A stretch of DNA of 11,070 bases. Origin: Candidatus Hodarchaeota archaeon (GTDB taxonomy: Archaea > Asgardarchaeota > Heimdallarchaeia > Hodarchaeales > YT1-057). The notes beneath the pieces were generated by a model. It worked only from the letters and a program-made list of their open reading frames with translations, had not been told where the DNA came from and did not search any database. Location of the stretch: the NCBI GenBank assembly GCA_016839955.1, contig JAEOTI010000220.1, positions 1 to 11,070 on the forward strand, in the 5' to 3' direction. Below are positions 1 to 10,824 of the stretch, one piece after another. Made by a program: the position numbers and the translations under genes. The number at the start of each line of letters is the position of its first letter. The first letter of the stretch is position 1.

Positions 1-2
1 GG

Positions 3-254
3 TTTCTGAAACGTTCTAGATTTGATCTTACAGGCGCTCTTGAAGATTTTAAGAATGCAAGTTCAATGGCTAAAGAAAGAAGTATGACTAAGCTCGTCCA
101 GATCATTAAAAAAGAGATTCAGAAAACCACAGACCAAATAAGTATGATACAGAAACTCCAGGAAATCTCTCAGGAAAAATATGAAGAAATTCAAATCAAT
201 GAATTCATTTCCTACCTTAAAGATGTCCAAGAACTCAGACAATTTATGCAATGA
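3..254 (+). CDS. C-terminal end of a TPR-type protein (5' end outside window)
   Basis: An open frame runs in from the left edge (first whole codon at 3) to TGA at 252-254, giving 83 visible residues. The sequence is helical and charged, with coiled-coil character. Its first residues (KRS-FDL-GA--F, about codons 3-16) match the C-terminal region of the TPR protein at 469-1857 from about residue 384 on. The likeness continues weakly to the end: both tails have a KE pair, then L--S---YE--Q--E, and a final Y-containing helix. I infer that the two are paralogues and that TPR repeats lie upstream, outside the window. TPR proteins are helical scaffolds for protein-protein contacts, and the partner is unknown. 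A Met at position 66 is internal to this frame, and the homology begins before it, so I do not take it as the start. The gene is convergent with the second TPR gene. Confidence 0.75.
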   Translation, partial: FLKRSRFDLTGALEDFKNASSMAKERSMTKLVQIIKKEIQKTTDQISMIQKLQEISQEKYEEIQINEFISYLKDVQELRQFMQ

Positions 255-273
255 AGCTCATTTTCAGACTATT

Positions 274-313
274 GTCCCAGAGATCTGGGACGAAAACCCC
301 CCTAGTTCTGGGG
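274..313. terminator. Two tandem GC-rich hairpins between convergent genes
   Basis: A perfect 7-bp inverted repeat GTCCCAG/CTGGGAC with loop AGAT occupies 274-291, beginning 20 bases after the TPR stop codon. A second C-run/G-run pair (ACCCC...GGGGT, about 297-313) follows at once. Both stand out in an AT-rich background. They lie between convergent transcription units, so a 3'-end structure or bidirectional terminator is the simplest reading. No long U-tract follows, so the role is inferred. Confidence 0.45.
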
Positions 314-359
314 TAGTTATTAACCAAGAATATAATAAATTTCGTTTAGGAAGTATAGT

Positions 360-431
360 TTACAGGGCGCTCAATGCAACTCGTTCAATATCTTGTGTCT
401 TCTTAACTGTATACGACTGAAGATCATAATT
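360..431 (-). pseudogene. Decayed fragment of rps7: last 23 codons plus stop of uS7
   Basis: Read on the - strand, 431 down to 360 encodes NYDLQS-YTVKKTQ-DIERVALSAL followed by TAA (hyphens only break the string). It aligns without gaps to residues 179-201 of the intact uS7 at 2006-2611, with 16 of 23 residues identical. By my count 55 of 72 bases match, including an uninterrupted 17-base run at 379-395. Beyond codon 23 the likeness fades into an AT-rich stretch and there is no start codon, so this is a fragment and not a gene. Several differences are synonymous third-base changes (in the S, L, V and K codons), which suggests the piece diverged while still part of a functional gene and was cut off later. 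It has the same orientation as the intact gene and lies about 1.6 kb downstream of it, on the far side of the TPR gene. Confidence 0.8.
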
Positions 432-468
432 CATAATTTTTTTTAAAATCATGATAGAAATAGACTAT

Positions 469-1857
469 TTATCCTAAGACGACTTGTTTGGCTTCCTGCA
501 TGTAGTCCAAAATCTCTCGCATCTGTAATTGTTCGTATGCCCCTGGGGACAATCGCATGAGACTTTTGAGTTTATCTGTGTGTTCAATAAGTTGGTTCAG
601 TTCTTTTCGTGCTCTTTGAGCAATTGGTTGAATTCCCTGTTCTTGAGCAAGGAGTTCGGTTAGTTTGAATTGCTTAATAGCTCCCTCAAGATCAAATTCT
701 GATCGTTTTAAGAGAGCCTGGATGAAGCATGTACCAACATAAACCCCATGAAGATTTTCTCGTTTACTCAATTGGATAAGGCTTTGCAATAAATCGTTAA
801 TCTGGTCCTTATATTGTGATTGGCTTGTAAGGAGGTACATTTGGACATAAATTTGAACAAGTAATTCGAGACTATCGACTAACATTTCAAAATGGGGAAG
901 CTGTTTTGCTAAATCCTTTGCATCATTACTACAACTCAATGCTTGAGGAAAATCAAGTTGCCTTAATTTTAAAAAGCTTTTAGCAAGTAAATGTCGTAAA
1001 ACAACTTCTTGTATTCCAGTTTTTTGAGCTAGTTTAGCTAATTCTTCAACTTGCTTATCTGCATCATTGAGGTTCTCCTGTCTTAGTAGAACTCGTACCA
1101 ATTGGTGGCGAGCATCTGCAATGTATTGTGGATTACTTTTTTCCAAATGTAAATCTAAACTTCGCTGAAGGACATCTTGGGCTTGTTCTAACTCTCCACA
1201 TCTCACATATACATTTCCAAGATTGATCAAAGCCGTGGCGATGTATTGGGGAGTTTTAAGTTCTTCTCTTATCGCAAGACTCCTCAGAAAACATTCTTTA
1301 GAATTATTGTAATCTCCTCTTTGGAAATAGACATTTCCAAGATTATTTGTTGATACAGCTATACCCTCAGCATCATTCAGCTTCTCATAAATGATGAGAC
1401 TTCGTTTGTGACATTCTTCTGCGTGACTTAAATCCCCTCGTTGCCAATACACATTCCCCAAATTAGTCAGAGAGCCTGAAATGTTACTTTGATCATCAAG
1501 TTTCTCTCTTATAGTTAAACTCCTTTTGTAGTAATCTTCAGCTCGATTAAGTTTACCATGTGACCAATGAACATTTCCAAGATTGTTAAAAGCAGAACCT
1601 AGTCCCTCAAGGATTACAGGCGATTGTTCTGCCAATTTTAAGGCTTCAAACGCTTGGCGTTCAGCATTTTCTAGTTGTGCTAACCGTAAAAAACACATAC
1701 TTCGTTCATTTAATCCTTTGATTCGTTCATGTCGTTCATCAGGTCCCAATTGATCAAAGTAGTTGTCTAAAAGAGCAAGGGCATCCTTAAATTTTCCTGA
1801 TTTGCGCAGGTCCCTCACTTCTTTGAGGATTGAGGTTGGTAGCATACTTTTACTCAT
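469..1857 (-). CDS. TPR-repeat protein, 462 aa
   Basis: The protein is built almost wholly of tetratricopeptide repeats and has no visible enzymatic motif, membrane segment or signal peptide. The clearest repeats recur every 40 residues, each with a NLGNV(Y/H)---G-L--A----KRSL-I-EKL core, at about residues 86-119, 126-159, 166-199 and 206-239. More divergent repeats extend on both sides (about 15-80 and 246-420). The 40-residue period is of the Kinesin-light-chain/LGN type of TPR. The C-terminal 80 residues are paralogous to the partial gene at 3-254. A cytoplasmic scaffold or sensor role is inferred from the fold; the ligand is unknown. The start is ATG at 1857; a second Met follows at codon 5. 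No strong Shine-Dalgarno or TATA box was seen. The gene lies 148 bases downstream of rps7 on the same strand, but a hairpin separates them, so co-transcription is uncertain. Confidence 0.9.
   Translation of the reverse strand: MSKSMLPTSILKEVRDLRKSGKFKDALALLDNYFDQLGPDERHERIKGLNERSMCFLRLAQLENAERQAFEALKLAEQSPVILEGLGSAFNNLGNVHWSHGKLNRAEDYYKRSLTIREKLDDQSNISGSLTNLGNVYWQRGDLSHAEECHKRSLIIYEKLNDAEGIAVSTNNLGNVYFQRGDYNNSKECFLRSLAIREELKTPQYIATALINLGNVYVRCGELEQAQDVLQRSLDLHLEKSNPQYIADARHQLVRVLLRQENLNDADKQVEELAKLAQKTGIQEVVLRHLLAKSFLKLRQLDFPQALSCSNDAKDLAKQLPHFEMLVDSLELLVQIYVQMYLLTSQSQYKDQINDLLQSLIQLSKRENLHGVYVGTCFIQALLKRSEFDLEGAIKQFKLTELLAQEQGIQPIAQRARKELNQLIEHTDKLKSLMRLSPGAYEQLQMREILDYMQEAKQVVLG
1211..1584. 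repeat. Direct repeats with exact 120-bp period inside the TPR gene
   Basis: The core ACATTTCCAAGATT is found at 1211-1224, 1331-1344 and 1571-1584, with a variant (ACATTCCCCAAATT) at 1451-1464. Spacing is exactly 120 bases, or 40 codons, so the repeat is the coding signature of successive TPR units (the LGNV helix). The high conservation in DNA as well as protein suggests fairly recent unit duplication or gene conversion. Confidence 0.8.
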
Positions 1858-1963
1858 TCGGGTTTGCTAAAATGTGTTACTTCATAGGCATCTCTTTTCT
1901 GAATTTGAGAAACCTAGAGAAATTGTGAAGGAATCAATGATAAACAAAATATAAATTAAATGG

Positions 1964-1994
1964 AATCCCCTTCCTTTTTAAATAAAAGGGGACT
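1964..1994 (-). terminator. Hairpin just downstream of rps7
   Basis: In the - strand transcript, 12 bases past the rps7 stop, AGUCCCCUUUU can pair with GGAAGGGGAUU around a loop of about nine bases. Three of the pairs are G-U wobbles that work only in - strand RNA; the + strand RNA would have A-C mismatches there. This strand bias fits a structure serving the rps7 transcript. U-rich sequence follows toward 1940. A role as terminator or 3'-end stabiliser is inferred. Confidence 0.45.
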
Positions 1995-2005
1995 GGATTT
2001 TCAAT

Positions 2006-2611
2006 TTAACGGGCACTTAATGCTACTCGTTCAATATCTTGCTTTTTCTTAACGGCATGAGATCTAGGATCATTATTCGCTGCCCAAATGAGTTCTTCTG
2101 CCAAAATTAGCGAAGTTGGTTTAATACTATTGAAGCTCTGCTTTCTTACGGCTTCAGCGAGTAGTCGAAGGGCTACATCAACGCGGCGTTGTGGGGCGCT
2201 GTCGACAGAGCTCGGATATACTACGCCACCGTAGGAAATCCTAGTGGTCTCTTCTCGAGGAGCTGAATATTCAATGGCACGAACAAGTTGCTCGATTGGA
2301 TTTTTACCAGATCGTAGCTCCACGATCTCAAAGGCTGTTTTTATGAGTTTTAGTGTCCTCATTTTTTTTCCATTGCTCGAGCCAGACTTTTTTCCGCCTT
2401 CTTTCTTTTTTTTCGGCGTGTTCATCAGCCGATTAGCAAGCCTTTCAACGATATGAACTCGCGATTTATGAAATCTCTTTTTTTCGTGTCTGCCACCTGA
2501 AAGAGGTGTTAAAACATTGTATAATTGGATGTATCGTCCTAAGCCAGGGTCATGTACTTCTATTTCGCTGCTATCCCACCGACCAAAGACTATAATCTCG
2601 TCGTAAAGCAT
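2006..2611 (-). CDS. rps7: Small ribosomal subunit protein uS7 (archaeal S7)
   Basis: uS7 nucleates the head of the 30S subunit by binding the 3' domain of 16S rRNA near the decoding and E sites. Recognition is by the archaeal/eukaryotic (RPS5-type) sequence: FGRWD near residue 9, DPGL-RYI at 21-28, SGGRHEKK-F-KS around 38-50, IVERL-NRLM at 54-63, GKNPIEQLV at 102-110, APREETTRISYGG at 117-129, AP-RRVDVALR at 139-149 and the C-terminal IERVA-SAR. Unusually, residues 65-84 hold a Lys/Gly/Ser-rich insertion between the NRLM helix and the next one. The start ATG at 2611 fits the usual N-terminus and has GGGG 8-11 bases upstream. The gene is not beside rps12, fusA or tuf, as it commonly is in archaea. 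Its stop lies next to a hairpin, and a broken copy of its 3' end lies at 360-431. Confidence 0.96.
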   Translation of the reverse strand: MLYDEIIVFGRWDSSEIEVHDPGLGRYIQLYNVLTPLSGGRHEKKRFHKSRVHIVERLANRLMNTPKKKKEGGKKSGSSNGKKMRTLKLIKTAFEIVELRSGKNPIEQLVRAIEYSAPREETTRISYGGVVYPSSVDSAPQRRVDVALRLLAEAVRKQSFNSIKPTSLILAEELIWAANNDPRSHAVKKKQDIERVALSAR

Positions 2612-2672
2612 AATATATCCCCGGTTCTAACGTGTATCATCCGATCTTTCTAAACTTAAAAGACTTGTTCAT

Positions 2673-3626
2673 TTAATCTTTCAAAAAGGCATCTAGGGCA
2701 GGTTTTGGTGGAGTCCAGTAAGAAACAATCTCATCTGATTTAACAAAGTCTCGAATTTTCTTTGCATCATCTGTTCGTTTCCATTCTGCTGATTGTTCGA
2801 GAGCTTTTGATTCACAAGCAATGCTTACTAAGTTAGTGAATCCATTTTGTTTAAGTACAGAAAGAAAAAGTTTCCAAGGAACACCATCTCCCTTTCCTAA
2901 TGGTGCATGGGACTTCTCACCTGCACTTGTCCGAAAAATACCTGAAATGTGGATTGGGAGACGTCTGTGAGAAGAAATATCCAAACGGGATTCAATCTCA
3001 GTGAAACGGGATTGAATGGAATCAAATGATGTTACATGTCCGCCTCTTGCAAAGTCATGAGCTATGTCCCACGTAAAAAGTGTATTACAATGTTCTGCAA
3101 GTTCTAAAATTTCATGAAAGGACCCCAATGAATTTACTTTCCCTGCAACTTCTGGGCAGTAATCAACTGAGATATTACGATCATTTCTAACCTCAATCAT
3201 TTCTTTAAGTATAATTTTTGACCTTTCCAATCCTCTTCGACCAGGTCCACGAGAACCACAGTGAAAAGTAATATGCGTAGCCCCAATTGTATGAGCCGCT
3301 TTTGCAGTTGCTGTCATGGAAGCTTTTGCGAATTGCGTTTTACCAGGCTCATAAGACGTTGTTACAATTGAATATGGTGCGTGAATCGAGAAAATTAAAT
3401 TTGATTCTTGTGCAATGGTGCGTAATTTTGAGCAAATGTCTTGATTAGGAAAAGGCGCGCCAGGTTTCCCTTTTGACCAATTTAAGGTACAACGTTGAAA
3501 ACCAAATTCTATGTAATTTAAATTATTCTCTGGGATTTGTTTGATTGTAGATTTGATATTCTCAAAACTTGTAAGCCCATGAAAACCCTGTGAGATACCA
3601 ACACATATTTCATTAAGTTTAGGCAT
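2673..3626 (-). CDS. Endonuclease IV-like TIM-barrel protein (AP endonuclease 2 family)
   Basis: Members of this family are three-zinc TIM-barrel enzymes. Endonuclease IV cuts DNA at abasic sites in base excision repair, while relatives are sugar isomerases and epimerases. Set against the known metal ligands of E. coli Nfo, I find H82 (IHAPY), H122 (FHCGS), E159 (PEVAGK), D187 and H190 (WDIAHDF), H226 (IHISG), H240 (SHAPLGKGD) and E272 (ACES). The spacings are close to those of Nfo: 40, 37, 28, 3, 36, 14 and 32 residues. One ligand differs: the Asp of the Nfo D-x-H motif is K238 here (K-S-H), with E237 beside it. At 317 residues it is slightly longer than the usual 280 or so. Activity on DNA is likely but not certain because of that change. 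ATG at 3626 sits about 32 bases after a TATA box. The rps7 start follows 61 bases after the stop on the same strand. Confidence 0.75.
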   Translation of the reverse strand: MPKLNEICVGISQGFHGLTSFENIKSTIKQIPENNLNYIEFGFQRCTLNWSKGKPGAPFPNQDICSKLRTIAQESNLIFSIHAPYSIVTTSYEPGKTQFAKASMTATAKAAHTIGATHITFHCGSRGPGRRGLERSKIILKEMIEVRNDRNISVDYCPEVAGKVNSLGSFHEILELAEHCNTLFTWDIAHDFARGGHVTSFDSIQSRFTEIESRLDISSHRRLPIHISGIFRTSAGEKSHAPLGKGDGVPWKLFLSVLKQNGFTNLVSIACESKALEQSAEWKRTDDAKKIRDFVKSDEIVSYWTPPKPALDAFLKD

Positions 3627-3654
3627 TGATTTTGCTTCGAGAAGCTTTACCTGA

Positions 3655-3661
3655 TTTTATA
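3655..3661 (-). promoter_or_regulatory. TATA box of the endonuclease IV-like gene
   Basis: On the - strand the sequence is TATAAAA preceded by purine-rich AAAGAAAGAATAG, which could serve as a BRE. Its centre is about 32 bases upstream of the ATG at 3626. A start 25-27 bases downstream would leave a leader of only about 6 bases, the near-leaderless layout common in archaea. Confidence 0.5.
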
Positions 3662-3782
3662 CTATTCTTTCTTTTGGAAATCCTAAAGGTCTCTATTTCT
3701 ACCAAAGGTTCTTGAAGAAATAACAGATATCAAAAAGTGTTTTCTTTTATTCCTTCTGGTGGTGTCTGTAATCGTTCTATTC

Positions 3783-4493
3783 ATGTTGGCTGAGAATATG
3801 AGTTTAAGTAAGAATACAGTCACTAAATGTAAAGATTTTCGAACTGAAATCCTTGGTGAAACTAAAAAAACTGCATGGGATAAACTTCCACTAGGAAAAC
3901 AATTGCAATGCTGTAGTGAATGTCCCCTTCGTCCGTATGATGAAGTTTCTTGTTCCTTTAGATGGGGACGTATACAAGATATTGCATCACTAAAACTCGG
4001 AACTTATACAGTCCTTCGGTGGGTATTTTCCGGTAAAGGACCATCTCACGAGTTTAAGTTTCATCCATATTTGGGTGCAAACCCTATTAGTGATATTATT
4101 TATGAAACCATAAAATTTATCAAAAACTGTGAACATATAGATCCTCAAACTCGCCCTGAGGAATTCAGGGAAGATCTCCAGGAAATTTACGCATTAGGAC
4201 CCTTTGAACCGACAAACATGGATTTTTCAACAATGGAAGGGAAAGTCAATATAATAATTAGCTATTGTCTATTAGATAGAGATCTTGAAAAACCTTTGAA
4301 AACTAAAGATATTAAACAAATACTTCCAGGAATAGAAGCTCTTTTAGCTTTGAAATATGAATACTTAGCAAGTCAAGAAAAATGGAATTCTGCAAGGCCT
4401 CATGTCATCCTCGCGATGTTACTATGGAGACAATATTTGAAAATGCTTAAAGTCAGTAATAAGGCAGAATTTGATTTTTATTTTTCCTTATAA
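3783..4493 (+). CDS. Unrecognised protein with a cysteine cluster, about 236 aa
   Basis: I do not recognise the family. The visible feature is a cysteine-rich stretch near the N-terminus. Counting from the upstream GTG at 3759, C24 is followed by C51-C52-x2-C55-x9-C65, in the context QCCSECPLRPYDEVSC. This could bind zinc or an iron-sulphur cluster. The rest is mixed alpha/beta and largely helical after residue 110, ending in a hydrophobic helix around 215-230 that is too broken for a clear membrane anchor. The frame opens at GTG 3759, but I prefer ATG 3783: a TATA-like TTTTAT at 3745-3750 would put the transcript start about 8 bases before it, and the extra N-terminus adds only a short hydrophobic run. 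ATG 3798 is also possible. The next gene starts 17 bases after this stop, so the two probably form an operon and may act together. Confidence 0.8.
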   Translation: MLAENMSLSKNTVTKCKDFRTEILGETKKTAWDKLPLGKQLQCCSECPLRPYDEVSCSFRWGRIQDIASLKLGTYTVLRWVFSGKGPSHEFKFHPYLGANPISDIIYETIKFIKNCEHIDPQTRPEEFREDLQEIYALGPFEPTNMDFSTMEGKVNIIISYCLLDRDLEKPLKTKDIKQILPGIEALLALKYEYLASQEKWNSARPHVILAMLLWRQYLKMLKVSNKAEFDFYFSL

Positions 4494-4495
4494 GG

Positions 4496-4501
4496 TGGTG
4501 A
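4496..4501 (+). promoter_or_regulatory. Ribosome binding site deciding the TTG start of the longin-like gene
   Basis: GGTGGTGA (about 4495-4501) follows the stop of the preceding gene and lies some 10 bases before TTG at 4511. GGTGA matches the archaeal anti-Shine-Dalgarno core. It supports the TTG start over the first in-frame ATG at 4598, which would delete the first strands of the longin-like domain. A very similar GGTGGTG occurs at 3758-3764, ahead of the upstream gene. Confidence 0.5.
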
Positions 4502-4510
4502 ACGTCTCTC

Positions 4511-5371
4511 TTGATTGTTTTATGTGGATATATTGATCTAACAAGTGGATTAGCCTGGGAAATATGGGAGAATAAAGAACGAAAATTGGATGTTGGTATG
4601 AGTTTAGTAGGGCCCTTAATCTACGCATTGGATGCGTTTGTTAAAGAACTGACATTTAGTAAACGAGGATTCTCAGAAGGGGCTTTAGAAGACTTACGAA
4701 TGATTCTGTATCAGCCACCCGAACCAAAAAAAGGAGACTATTTCTATGTAGTTTTCCAGCATTTGTATGATAGTATTGATTACACACATCGTAAAATAAA
4801 ACTCGTAGACAATGTTATAGGCGAACATCTTAGTGCAAATGTTTTCAATCCTCCAAAAGACTCTATAAAAAATGCTATTGATATTTTAAAATTTACACAG
4901 AAATTCCCTGAAGGGTTGATTACTGCTGAGGAATATATCGTTCAAGAAAAAATGACTCAGCTTGAAGAGAAAGGAGTAATATTTCTTGATCTATTTCTTG
5001 CAGACATTGATGAAGGGCTTATGATCGATTTTGTAGAGAACGATCTCATTGAAAAAACACCAAATAGACTATTTCATGATTTGCTGGCGTCGGTTCAATT
5101 TGAAGATTCATTGTACTTAGAAACTATTGCAGATAAAAGAGTAATAAACGGTCTTGCATTAGAAAAACAGTCTGGAATCCTTGAAGGCTGGATTGTTCAG
5201 TCGATTAAAGACAAAGTACCCACGGATTTCTTCATTGTAGCATATTTTGTGTTTAATCCAAGCAAATGCTCATGTCAGGAAATTAAAGAGGCTATAAGTT
5301 CTATATCAACTAATTTCTATGAAAAAATCAAGGATCATATTCAGGAATCTCCGATCTGGAAGACATCTTAA
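4511..5371 (+). CDS. Longin/roadblock-like domain protein, 286 aa
   Basis: The first 108 or so residues read like a longin/roadblock-type domain. There is a strand (residues 2-8), a turn TSG (11-13), a second strand (LAWEIW), and a long helix G-SLVGPLIYALDAFVKEL (about 29-47) resembling the L-sGf--A---F-KEl helix of such domains. Two more strands follow (RMILYQ, and YFYVVFQ at about 77-83), then a closing helix 91-108. In eukaryotes and Asgard archaea these domains commonly regulate or dimerise beside small GTPases. Residues 110-286 are mixed alpha/beta, contain a C-x-C (C253, C255), and are unassigned. The start is TTG, supported by the GGTGGTGA upstream and by the need for the first strand. 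The gene is tightly coupled to the cysteine-cluster gene and is followed, 213 bases on, by a Rag-like GTPase. I infer a GTPase-regulator or scaffold role; the assignment rests on a pattern and not on a signature motif. Confidence 0.7.
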   Translation: MIVLCGYIDLTSGLAWEIWENKERKLDVGMSLVGPLIYALDAFVKELTFSKRGFSEGALEDLRMILYQPPEPKKGDYFYVVFQHLYDSIDYTHRKIKLVDNVIGEHLSANVFNPPKDSIKNAIDILKFTQKFPEGLITAEEYIVQEKMTQLEEKGVIFLDLFLADIDEGLMIDFVENDLIEKTPNRLFHDLLASVQFEDSLYLETIADKRVINGLALEKQSGILEGWIVQSIKDKVPTDFFIVAYFVFNPSKCSCQEIKEAISSISTNFYEKIKDHIQESPIWKTS

Positions 5372-5584: not shown

Positions 5585-6601
5585 ATGATAGATTGTGGCA
5601 ATAAGCGAAGAATCGTCTTTGCTGGTCAAAGAGGAGCTGGAAAAAGTTCCCTTCTGGAATTAATCGCACAATCCTTTCCTTGTAGCGTATCTAATAATGA
5701 AGTCAAAAATTCTAATGATTTTAATCCATTTCCTCGTTTTTATGACTTAGAAGAACCCCAAAATAAATTTGAGTTAGAAAAATGGAAAAATGAACTTACA
5801 ACATTTACGGATGCAATTATCTTCGTAGTAGATGGAGAAAATCGGGAAGAATGGCAAAAAGCTGGAGAATTACTTAAGGAATTAATAGAAACAATCGATC
5901 CATCTATTCCAATTGCGCTTACGATTCATAAAATAGATCGTGGCAAACCAGATTTTGCTGAGTTATTCGAACATCTTGCCCTTTCTGAACTGCTTGAAAT
6001 CTCTCAAGCAAGTGTTAGGATTTTTTACACTAGTACAAATGGTAACCAGGATATAACTCAGTTTTTAGATTGGTTAGGAGAACAAATCTGTTTCTTTCCT
6101 CGCATTAGTTCTGATACTCTGTTCCAAATAATAGTTTTTCGTGAATCAGGAGTGCCAATAGCATTAATCGGATCCAAAGATGAAAAGACCCCAAATTGGC
6201 ATAATGCCTTACTGGCCGCAGCTTATTCGGCAATAGATCAATTTTCATCGAGATTTGGAGTGGGAAGCAGTATAAAAACCTTAACGTTGACAAGTCCTGA
6301 CCTTGATCCTCGTTTACTCCGAGTATCTCGAGTTATTTGTGATCCATTTCGGGTTGTCTTAATAACTCGTGGTGTACCACCAGAAATTGTCTTTCGATTT
6401 GGTGAGTATACTGGGAATTACTTTAAAAAAATGCATATTGAAACCAAAATTGAAAAAACAAGGCAATATACAGTTCCTAGTTTTTTTGATAAACTCACAG
6501 AATCAATATCTTCCGCTTGCCCTTGTTTACCAATAATTAAAACAACTAAAAAGGAGCATATGTGGCCAAAATTAGAATTATTACAAAAACAAAAGATTTA
6601 G
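5585..6601 (+). CDS. Rag/Gtr-like GTPase with C-terminal roadblock/longin-like domain, 338 aa
   Basis: Residues 8-172 form a small GTPase-like domain. The P-loop GQRGAGKS is at 14-21, a hydrophobic strand AIIFVVDGE at 77-85, the G4 motif HKID at 115-118 and the G5-like TST at 149-151. HKxD in place of NKxD is typical of Rag/Gtr GTPases, as is the stretch from G5 to the following helix (YTSTNGN...WLGEQICFFP). Residues 175-290 form a second domain (IIVFRESGVPIALIG, NALLAAAYSAIDQF, then strands to VVLITRG) with roadblock/longin-like layout, again as in Rag proteins, where it mediates dimerisation. Oddly, switch II reads YDLEEPQ instead of WDxxGQ, and switch I is short with no clear G2 threonine, so GTP hydrolysis may be impaired. 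Rag-type proteins sense nutrients at membranes in eukaryotes; that role is only an analogy here. It follows the longin-like gene on the same strand. Confidence 0.8.
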   Translation: MIDCGNKRRIVFAGQRGAGKSSLLELIAQSFPCSVSNNEVKNSNDFNPFPRFYDLEEPQNKFELEKWKNELTTFTDAIIFVVDGENREEWQKAGELLKELIETIDPSIPIALTIHKIDRGKPDFAELFEHLALSELLEISQASVRIFYTSTNGNQDITQFLDWLGEQICFFPRISSDTLFQIIVFRESGVPIALIGSKDEKTPNWHNALLAAAYSAIDQFSSRFGVGSSIKTLTLTSPDLDPRLLRVSRVICDPFRVVLITRGVPPEIVFRFGEYTGNYFKKMHIETKIEKTRQYTVPSFFDKLTESISSACPCLPIIKTTKKEHMWPKLELLQKQKI

Positions 6602-6690: not shown

Positions 6691-8235
6691 ATGCCGGAAA
6701 AAACGATTGAGGACTTATCTTCTGGTGATCTTCCTGAAACAGAACTAAATCGATTATTAGTCGACTTTATGCCGCTCGGTATGTTCACTGCAAACAGTTC
6801 AGGAAAAATAACTTTTCAAAATCGAATTTTCTCAAATCTATTTGGTGGACCTTTAATTAATGTTTTCGAGGACAACGCAATTAGAGAAGCTGGCCTTGAT
6901 ATAGTATTCAAAGAAACTATTACAAATGGACTCGGAACGACATTTATGGGTCCTTATAAACAATATACAATTAACGTTTTGACAACACCAATAATTAGTC
7001 CGAAAAATGGTACAGTAATTGGGCTTATGGGTCTGATAACAGATCATACTACACAGGTTAAAAACCGATTAAAATTAGAAGAAATTGTAAAGGAAAGAAC
7101 AGCAGAGCTGGGAAAAAGAACTCAGGAATTAGTTCGATCAGAACACCGATTTAGAAATCTTATTGAGGTTATGGAAACTGGACTTTGGATTGCTGATCAA
7201 AAAGAGCAAACTACATATATAAACCCACGAATTGAAGAGATGCTCGGTTATTCAAAGGAAGAAATAATTGGAAAATCAGTCCTCGAGTTCATCGTCCCCG
7301 AAGATCACAAAAAGCTGGAGGACATAGACCGAGAGAGATATGTATCAAAAATTCCTACATCTGTTTATGATCTTACTCTTATTAAGAAAGATTCATCACT
7401 TATCCATGCCTTAGTATATGGTGTAGGTTTGTATGATGAGAAAGGTGAATGTGTCGAAACCTTTGCAACTATTACTGATATTTCAGACCGTAAAAAGGCT
7501 GAACAAGAACGTGAAGCTCTTTTAGAACGACTGCAGGATCTTGAATCCAGCCGCCGTGTCTTCTTAACAACAATTAGTCATGAAACAAGAACTCCGATCA
7601 CTGTCATCCTAGGGCAAGTTGATTTATTACTCAAAGGGAAAAGGGGTGATCTAACAGAAAAAACATATTCTTCATTGGAATCAATTCAACGAAACATACA
7701 TCGTTTAGAACGACTTCTAGGAGATACTCAAGCACTTTTAAGAATAGAATCAAATGCATATGAATTGAATCTCCAGGATTTCAACTTAATTCAGATAATT
7801 AAGAATACTGCTCAGGATTTTCACCATTTGCTTCAACAAAGAGATCAAAAATTCGAATTAGATCCTGTAATACTTCATCGAGAGTCCCTAATAGTGAATG
7901 GAGATCCTGAAAAAATCATTCAGGTTTTAAACAATCTAGTGGAGAATGCAATCCTTTACTCCCCTATAGAAAGTCAAATCAGAATCCAAGTAACTGAGGA
8001 AGAAAAGAATATAATTATTTCTGTTTTAGATAATGGATATGGAATTCCAGGGATCCAACAGCAAGATCCTCTTGAAAAAAGAATTGATTTCGATGCTATT
8101 AAAATAGATAAGGGCCTCGGTCTTACAATAGTAAAACAAATTATAGACAGGCATAACGGAGAAGTCTGGTTTGAAACTGGGATTGATAATAAAGGAACGT
8201 GTGTCTCTTTCTCTTTACCTAAGAAAAAAAAATAA
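6691..8235 (+). CDS. Soluble PAS-PAS sensor histidine kinase, 514 aa
   Basis: Domains in order: a PAS-like sensor at about 20-122 (PLGMFTANSSGKITFQNR), a coiled-coil linker at about 123-152, and a second, more typical PAS at about 153-272 (GLWIADQ, YINPRIEEMLGYSKEEIIGKS, ITDISDRK). A HisKA dimerisation domain follows with phosphoacceptor H297 in SHETRTP, then a HATPase domain with N-box NNLVENA (414-420), G1 DNGYGIP (447-453), G2 GLGL (475-478) and a last GTCVSF strand (502-507). All catalytic motifs are present, so the kinase should be active. It has no transmembrane segment and is thus a cytoplasmic sensor, perhaps of redox state or a small ligand. No response regulator or receiver domain is seen in the window. 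ATG 6691 is supported by AGAGGT ten bases upstream. It lies 89 bases after the GTPase gene on the same strand. Confidence 0.93.
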   Translation: MPEKTIEDLSSGDLPETELNRLLVDFMPLGMFTANSSGKITFQNRIFSNLFGGPLINVFEDNAIREAGLDIVFKETITNGLGTTFMGPYKQYTINVLTTPIISPKNGTVIGLMGLITDHTTQVKNRLKLEEIVKERTAELGKRTQELVRSEHRFRNLIEVMETGLWIADQKEQTTYINPRIEEMLGYSKEEIIGKSVLEFIVPEDHKKLEDIDRERYVSKIPTSVYDLTLIKKDSSLIHALVYGVGLYDEKGECVETFATITDISDRKKAEQEREALLERLQDLESSRRVFLTTISHETRTPITVILGQVDLLLKGKRGDLTEKTYSSLESIQRNIHRLERLLGDTQALLRIESNAYELNLQDFNLIQIIKNTAQDFHHLLQQRDQKFELDPVILHRESLIVNGDPEKIIQVLNNLVENAILYSPIESQIRIQVTEEEKNIIISVLDNGYGIPGIQQQDPLEKRIDFDAIKIDKGLGLTIVKQIIDRHNGEVWFETGIDNKGTCVSFSLPKKKK

Positions 8236-10596: not shown

Positions 10597-10824
10597 ATGA
10601 ACTATAATTTTTCAGCAGAAATCGATTCAAATGGTAAATTAACGTTACCCCAAGAATGGATTGAAAATAATTTGACAGATGATGGAAAGGTTGCCCTTTA
10701 CACAAGTGGAAACGATTTAGTTATCCGACCTATCCGAGAATCGGATGAAGATTTTTTTGATGCAGAACATCTCGGGCTATTATCTATTGCACGAGCAAAA
10801 AATCATTTAGTAGAAGGAAAATAG
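10597..10824 (+). CDS. Small AbrB/MazE-like DNA-binding protein, 75 aa
   Basis: Residues 5-46 show the swapped-hairpin AbrB/SpoVT pattern: SAEIDSNGKLTLPQEWIE, then VALYTSGNDLVIRPI. Such proteins dimerise and bind DNA as transition-state regulators or as antitoxins of the MazE/VapB kind. The acidic C-terminal tail (ESDEDFFDAEHLG) could be the partner-binding part of an antitoxin. However, no PIN, MazF or other toxin-sized gene follows on this strand; a - strand gene converges from the right after 60 bases. A free-standing regulator is therefore as likely. ATG at 10597 has GGAGAT at 10583-10588. It is divergent from the TrmB-like gene and may share its regulation. Confidence 0.75.
   Translation: MNYNFSAEIDSNGKLTLPQEWIENNLTDDGKVALYTSGNDLVIRPIRESDEDFFDAEHLGLLSIARAKNHLVEGK

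Follow-up and report, generated by a model that had tools for sequence, protein, structure and literature searches.

A remnant of the rps7 3' end 1.6 kb from the working gene on an Asgard contig, probably left by local recombination

Introduction

Why should the end of a core ribosomal protein gene occur twice on one contig, with the second copy in the same orientation and separated from the working gene by 1.6 kb? This question is raised by positions 360..431 of the stretch of DNA analysed here (11,070 nucleotides; called the window throughout), where the final 23 codons and stop of an rps7 (uS7) gene can be read on the minus strand. A sequence-only reading had taken these bases for what survives of a second rps7 and, from the many synonymous differences, had supposed that the two genes diverged while both were under protein-level selection, part of one being lost later. 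For the uS7 protein of the window (P0001), a single contig is listed; at 11070 bases it is as long as the window, which thus seems to be the whole contig.

Results

The intact rps7 occupies 2006..2611 on the minus strand and encodes a protein of 201 aa (Pfam Ribosomal_S7, E = 2e-36). Among the best 120 of 1206 uS7 matches, its closest relatives were P0002 (88% identical; from a Candidatus Heimdallarchaeota MAG), P0003 (88%), P0004 (82%), and P0005 (80%), followed by proteins of about 60% identity, of which the named ones belong to Hodarchaeales and other Promethearchaeota. P0001 to P0005 share a lysine/serine-rich insertion, the NTPKKKKEGGKKSGSSNGKK region, which is slightly varied in P0005; at the same site, P0006, P0007, and P0012, all from the group of about 60% identity, read SPGKNTGKK. 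P0005, which is encoded on a 2858-base contig, also deviates at several otherwise conserved places (e.g., VNKKQDAERV) and may represent a diverged copy or lineage. No other ribosomal gene was found near rps7 among the ORFs scanned, and the gene adjoins instead a TIM-barrel gene. Such a solitary rps7 fits the dispersal of the str/L30e ribosomal gene cluster that is described for Heimdallarchaeote genomes in an excerpt of PMC10833476, while the terms uS7 and rps7 have no occurrence in that excerpted text. Outside the window, a contig scan for relatives of the locus returned a single distant uS7 locus of bacterial origin (Dojkabacteria; 30% identical), viral contigs gave neither relatives of the locus nor pattern matches (0 of each), and the plasmids scanned gave one partial match (37%, Methylobacterium).

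The stretch at 360..431 (minus strand) is a genuine remnant of the end of a uS7 gene, and its similarity to rps7 is far above chance. When aligned without gaps with the end of the intact gene, 55 of the 72 bases and 16 of the 23 residues are identical, and the TAA stop is common to both; the local alignment scored 39, as compared with a maximum of 17 among 200 base shuffles. The same pair of sequences was found independently as a direct repeat (D2; 359-432 and 2005-2078, 74 nt, 77% identical, spacing 1646). Furthermore, a uS7 HMM, for which the 120 uS7 proteins listed (the window's own among them) were used and which was run against all six-frame open stretches of at least 15 residues in the window, ranked the relic second (E = 1.4e-5) after the intact gene (E = 8.2e-95), and no further uS7 piece scored better than an E value of 2.1, that of the third-ranked stretch. 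The two copies share an identical core of 17 bases; this core, picked by comparing them, is present at just two places in the window, with 0.04 matches being expected when up to three mismatches are allowed. The remnant is hence borne out as originally read, with its orientation, its length of 23 codons plus stop, and its 16 shared residues.

Twelve codons of the relic differ from those of rps7, and the synonymous changes noted before at S, L, V, and K codons were found again in five of them (two S, one each of K, V, and L), the other seven being nonsynonymous. The relic contains neither an internal stop nor a frameshift. Most of the gene is missing, however, and the relic is accordingly a truncated remnant: the open stretch around it (363-464) has 34 codons and gave no Pfam match up to an E value of 1, so that a functional paralogue with a full-length S7-domain frame was not found here. 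An RNA at this site was also considered and rejected, as the window contains no tRNA or tmRNA and nothing in it reached the gathering score of an Rfam family.

Detectable homology between the two copies breaks off at both ends of the relic, the direct repeat extending one base further on each side. Alignment of the 60 bases after the stop did not rise above shuffled sequences (23.9% of the shuffles reached the score), and in the first 30 of these bases 13 are alike; the 37 bases upstream of the relic likewise aligned no better than shuffles, 97.8% of which reached the score. Flanks of this kind agree with an old divergence that was held back in the coding part, and they agree just as well with a repeat whose original boundary was the stop codon. 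Scans of positions 1-3700 found nine promoters, where 9.7 are expected by chance, and one terminator, where 2.6 are expected; with no excess over chance, neither scan is informative.

Could the relic still serve as the tail of a uS7 protein? We compared it with 51 distinct tails taken from the best 120 of the 1206 uS7 matches, the window's own protein included. Three of its replacements (A8>T, K12>T, and R23>L) fall at positions that are A in all 51 tails, K in 49 (R in the other two), and R in all 51, respectively, and T8, T12, and L23 were each found in none of the 51. Among its other residues, Y2 and Q5 were also absent from the 51 tails, L4 occurred in one, and Y7 in nine. A, K, and R also stand at positions 8, 12, and 23 in five uS7 chains of solved structures, which we take to be archaeal and of which three hardly differ among themselves. 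Consistently, the profile score of the relic (-38.1) lies below those of all 51 distinct tails, although by a small margin from the lowest real one (-36.3; leave-one-out). Family constraint thus appears relaxed in the relic, which, judged from these residues, would hardly fit a working uS7 tail. Continued selection on it as such a tail was judged unlikely because the three replaced positions are otherwise invariant or nearly so.

On the minus strand, the genes are arranged in the order of the TIM-barrel gene, rps7, a TPR-repeat protein gene, and the relic, after which comes the plus-strand end of a second TPR-family gene. The first TPR gene (469..1857, minus strand; 462 aa; Pfam TPR families) is the sole listed ORF of at least 60 aa that lies wholly between rps7 and the relic. 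In a search that scored the 7993 candidates sharing most words, 120 of 207 matches to its product were listed; among these, the best full-length relative was P0122 (36% identical over 98%), partial matches reached 42% over 25%, and, as judged by base count, the contigs of the four closest uS7 relatives were not recognised. This protein also matches the PHROGs family phrog_5208, which is of unknown function (E = 7.1e-15). The second TPR-family gene is cut by the window start, its 3' end at 3..254 (plus strand; no Pfam match) converging on the relic. Its product resembles the C-terminus of the 462-aa protein (29% identical over 78 residues, E = 6e-13), and recent copying of one from the other can therefore be discounted.

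Upstream of rps7, the TIM-barrel gene (2673..3626, minus strand) encodes an endonuclease IV-like protein (Pfam AP_endonuc_2, E = 2e-18). Its relative P0244 (61%) and the uS7 relative P0003 are both listed with a 6269-base contig of the same source, whereas the contigs of the other uS7 relatives P0002, P0004, and P0005 (51334, 22919, and 2858 bases, respectively) are absent among all 71 TIM-barrel matches. When contigs are equated, indirectly, by base count and source, therefore, the pairing of rps7 with the TIM-barrel gene appears to recur in one of the four relatives. Since the TIM-barrel gene is missing from the contigs of the three others, the neighbourhood is visible only on the short 6269-base contig, and this contig may not reach the position of the TPR gene. 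We would guess that only the present lineage has the TPR gene here.

Elsewhere in the window, two adjacent ORFs on the plus strand (3759-5371; 244 and 286 aa) gave no Pfam, PADLOC, or PHROGs matches; downstream of them lie genes for an Arf-like GTPase (5585-6601) and a PAS histidine kinase (6691-8235). An ORF of 75 aa at 10597-10824 has a weak, below-cut-off match to MazE_antitoxin (E = 0.0014). PADLOC returned only TPR and weak ATPase-type matches.

We then turn to the history of the 17 base changes between the two copies, which were placed by simulation with the stop codon left unchanged. At least 16 identical residues were retained in 1.0% of the simulations when all the changes fell on a neutral relic, in 17.1% when three quarters fell on the relic and the rest were synonymous in the intact gene, and in 59.2% when half fell on the relic. 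In a separate simulation with equal branch times, where the relic passed through a constrained and then a neutral phase, 6676 of 773550 draws were accepted. The constrained fraction had a median of 0.67 in the accepted draws (5-95% range, 0.15 to 0.94), and such fractions are rough, given that the seven conserved positions used were picked after seeing the data, that the proportion of amino-acid changes accepted was fixed at 5%, and that the intact tail was taken as the ancestor with no indels. Constrained fractions below 0.1 made up 3.3% of the accepted simulations versus 10% of the prior; those between 0.9 and 1 made up 10.4% versus 10%, so that near-full constraint is not disfavoured in this simulation, which treats all residues alike.

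Under this model, an earlier constrained phase would be mildly favoured over decay from birth, and the lineage that went through that phase may have been this one or a donor. The idea that the copies diverged under protein-level selection thus gains something from the simulation, and selection on both of them is nonetheless weakly supported overall, because synonymous changes would arise from the intact gene by itself and because a relic that was neutral from birth, while disfavoured, is still conceivable. The sequence-only reading is thus partly supported, the uS7 remnant and its orientation being borne out. A partial duplication or a displaced native tail explains the data as well as a complete second rps7 does.

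Discussion

We consider it somewhat more probable than all other explanations together that 360..431 is a non-functional relic of the rps7 3' end, produced by a recombination after which the TPR gene separated the working rps7 from a spare tail. In such an event, recombination would have taken place at the 3' end of rps7, either as a duplication of the gene end or as an exchange with related incoming DNA that carried rps7; the TPR gene would thereby have come to lie between the working gene and a second copy of the tail, and the spare tail would then have lost its function and decayed. Because no relative with an empty or an intact version of the locus was seen, we infer the event from a single contig, and the same holds for its order, for the arrival of the TPR gene with it, and for the probable earlier phase of constrained divergence. 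Duplication, exchange, and integration with a displaced tail can be regarded as three versions of the recombination event.

The explanation closest to the original proposal, namely that a complete second rps7 once stood beside the first, that both worked for a time, and that a later deletion spared only the tail of one, is possible but rather unlikely in our estimate. It draws on the mild preference of the simulation for a constrained phase (median 67%) before neutral decay and on the flanks, since noncoding bases that can no longer be aligned (13 of 30 alike) next to a tail that keeps 55 of 72 are expected if the divergence is old and was constrained in the coding part. The same divergence could have built up in a donor, however, a relic decaying neutrally from birth would not need the phase at all, and the other 178 codons are nowhere found in the window by the uS7 HMM. 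Less probable still, and to be held as doubtful, is the integration of a mobile element into the 3' end of rps7 with its own version of the tail, upon which the old tail was displaced and decayed while the element shrank to the TPR gene. It is just as doubtful that elements of this Asgard lineage use the rps7 end as a target for integration, in which case the working tail would be element-borne and the relic the native one. An element would account for a one-gene segment that has a direct repeat of the gene end at each border (with a difference of about 23-24%), for the 17-base identical core, and for a detectable homology that stops at the stop codon, but on the 5' side the homology continues beyond the core. 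While the TPR protein has its match to phrog_5208, TPR repeats match widely, and the PHROGs matches are of unknown function. Precedents exist at the 3'-distal parts of protein-coding genes (excerpt of PMC6563490) and at rpsI (excerpt of PMC5090054), whereas the aloposons of Heimdallarchaeum use tRNA sites as far as the excerpted part of PMC8813620 describes them. Integration is rated this low because no recombinase was recognised, either when Pfam was run on 11 of the 24 listed ORFs or when PHROGs was run on eight proteins; no mobile gene was found inside the segment, where the TPR gene is the only ORF of at least 60 aa. With one gene in 1.6 kb, the segment is also small for an element, all of which the window may not hold.

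Two further readings appear very improbable to us. One is that translation of the relic yields a microprotein, 24-30 residues long and stemming from the uS7 tail: in-frame ATG codons precede it and its frame stays open as far as the stop, but the 37 upstream bases are unlike rps7, and with the residues conserved in uS7 lost, any role of such a microprotein would be a new one. The other, to which we give equally little credence, is that the end of another organism's rps7 was joined to this contig near 432-470 during assembly. The relic does lie close to the window end, at a distance of about 360 bases, and only one assembly was seen; a uS7 that works elsewhere, however, would not be expected to lose three residues that are otherwise invariant or nearly so, and the supposed join has members of one TPR family to its left and right.

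We thus return to a recombination at the end of rps7 as the preferred origin. The remnant is a minor one of a known kind, and in all likelihood a local rearrangement of the DNA left it behind as an ordinary relic. Taken alone, it amounts to a small fossil that has no evident consequence for the cell. If confirmed in relatives, the relic would show where an Asgard lineage underwent an insertion or exchange at a core ribosomal protein gene, and it would mean that even such core genes can gain or lose their ends by recombination.

In comparison with known systems, the relic resembles the prokaryotic pseudogenes and gene remnants described in part of PMC522871 in being a truncated and decaying gene copy, and differs from them in that its parent is a core ribosomal protein gene only 1.6 kb away and that only the end survives. 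In Thaumarchaeota, 14 of 68 mapped integrated elements are located in the 3'-distal part of protein-coding genes, according to the excerpt of PMC6563490; with these, our locus shares a gene end that is repeated at both borders of a segment, but it consists of a one-gene segment without a recognised recombinase and its 72-base repeat is 24% diverged. The bacterial IMESag-rpsI, as presented in the excerpt of PMC5090054, similarly has the end of a ribosomal protein gene as its border, as does the segment between rps7 and the relic, and yet it is an element of about 9 kb equipped with a recombinase and a relaxase, neither of which was recognised at the relic locus.
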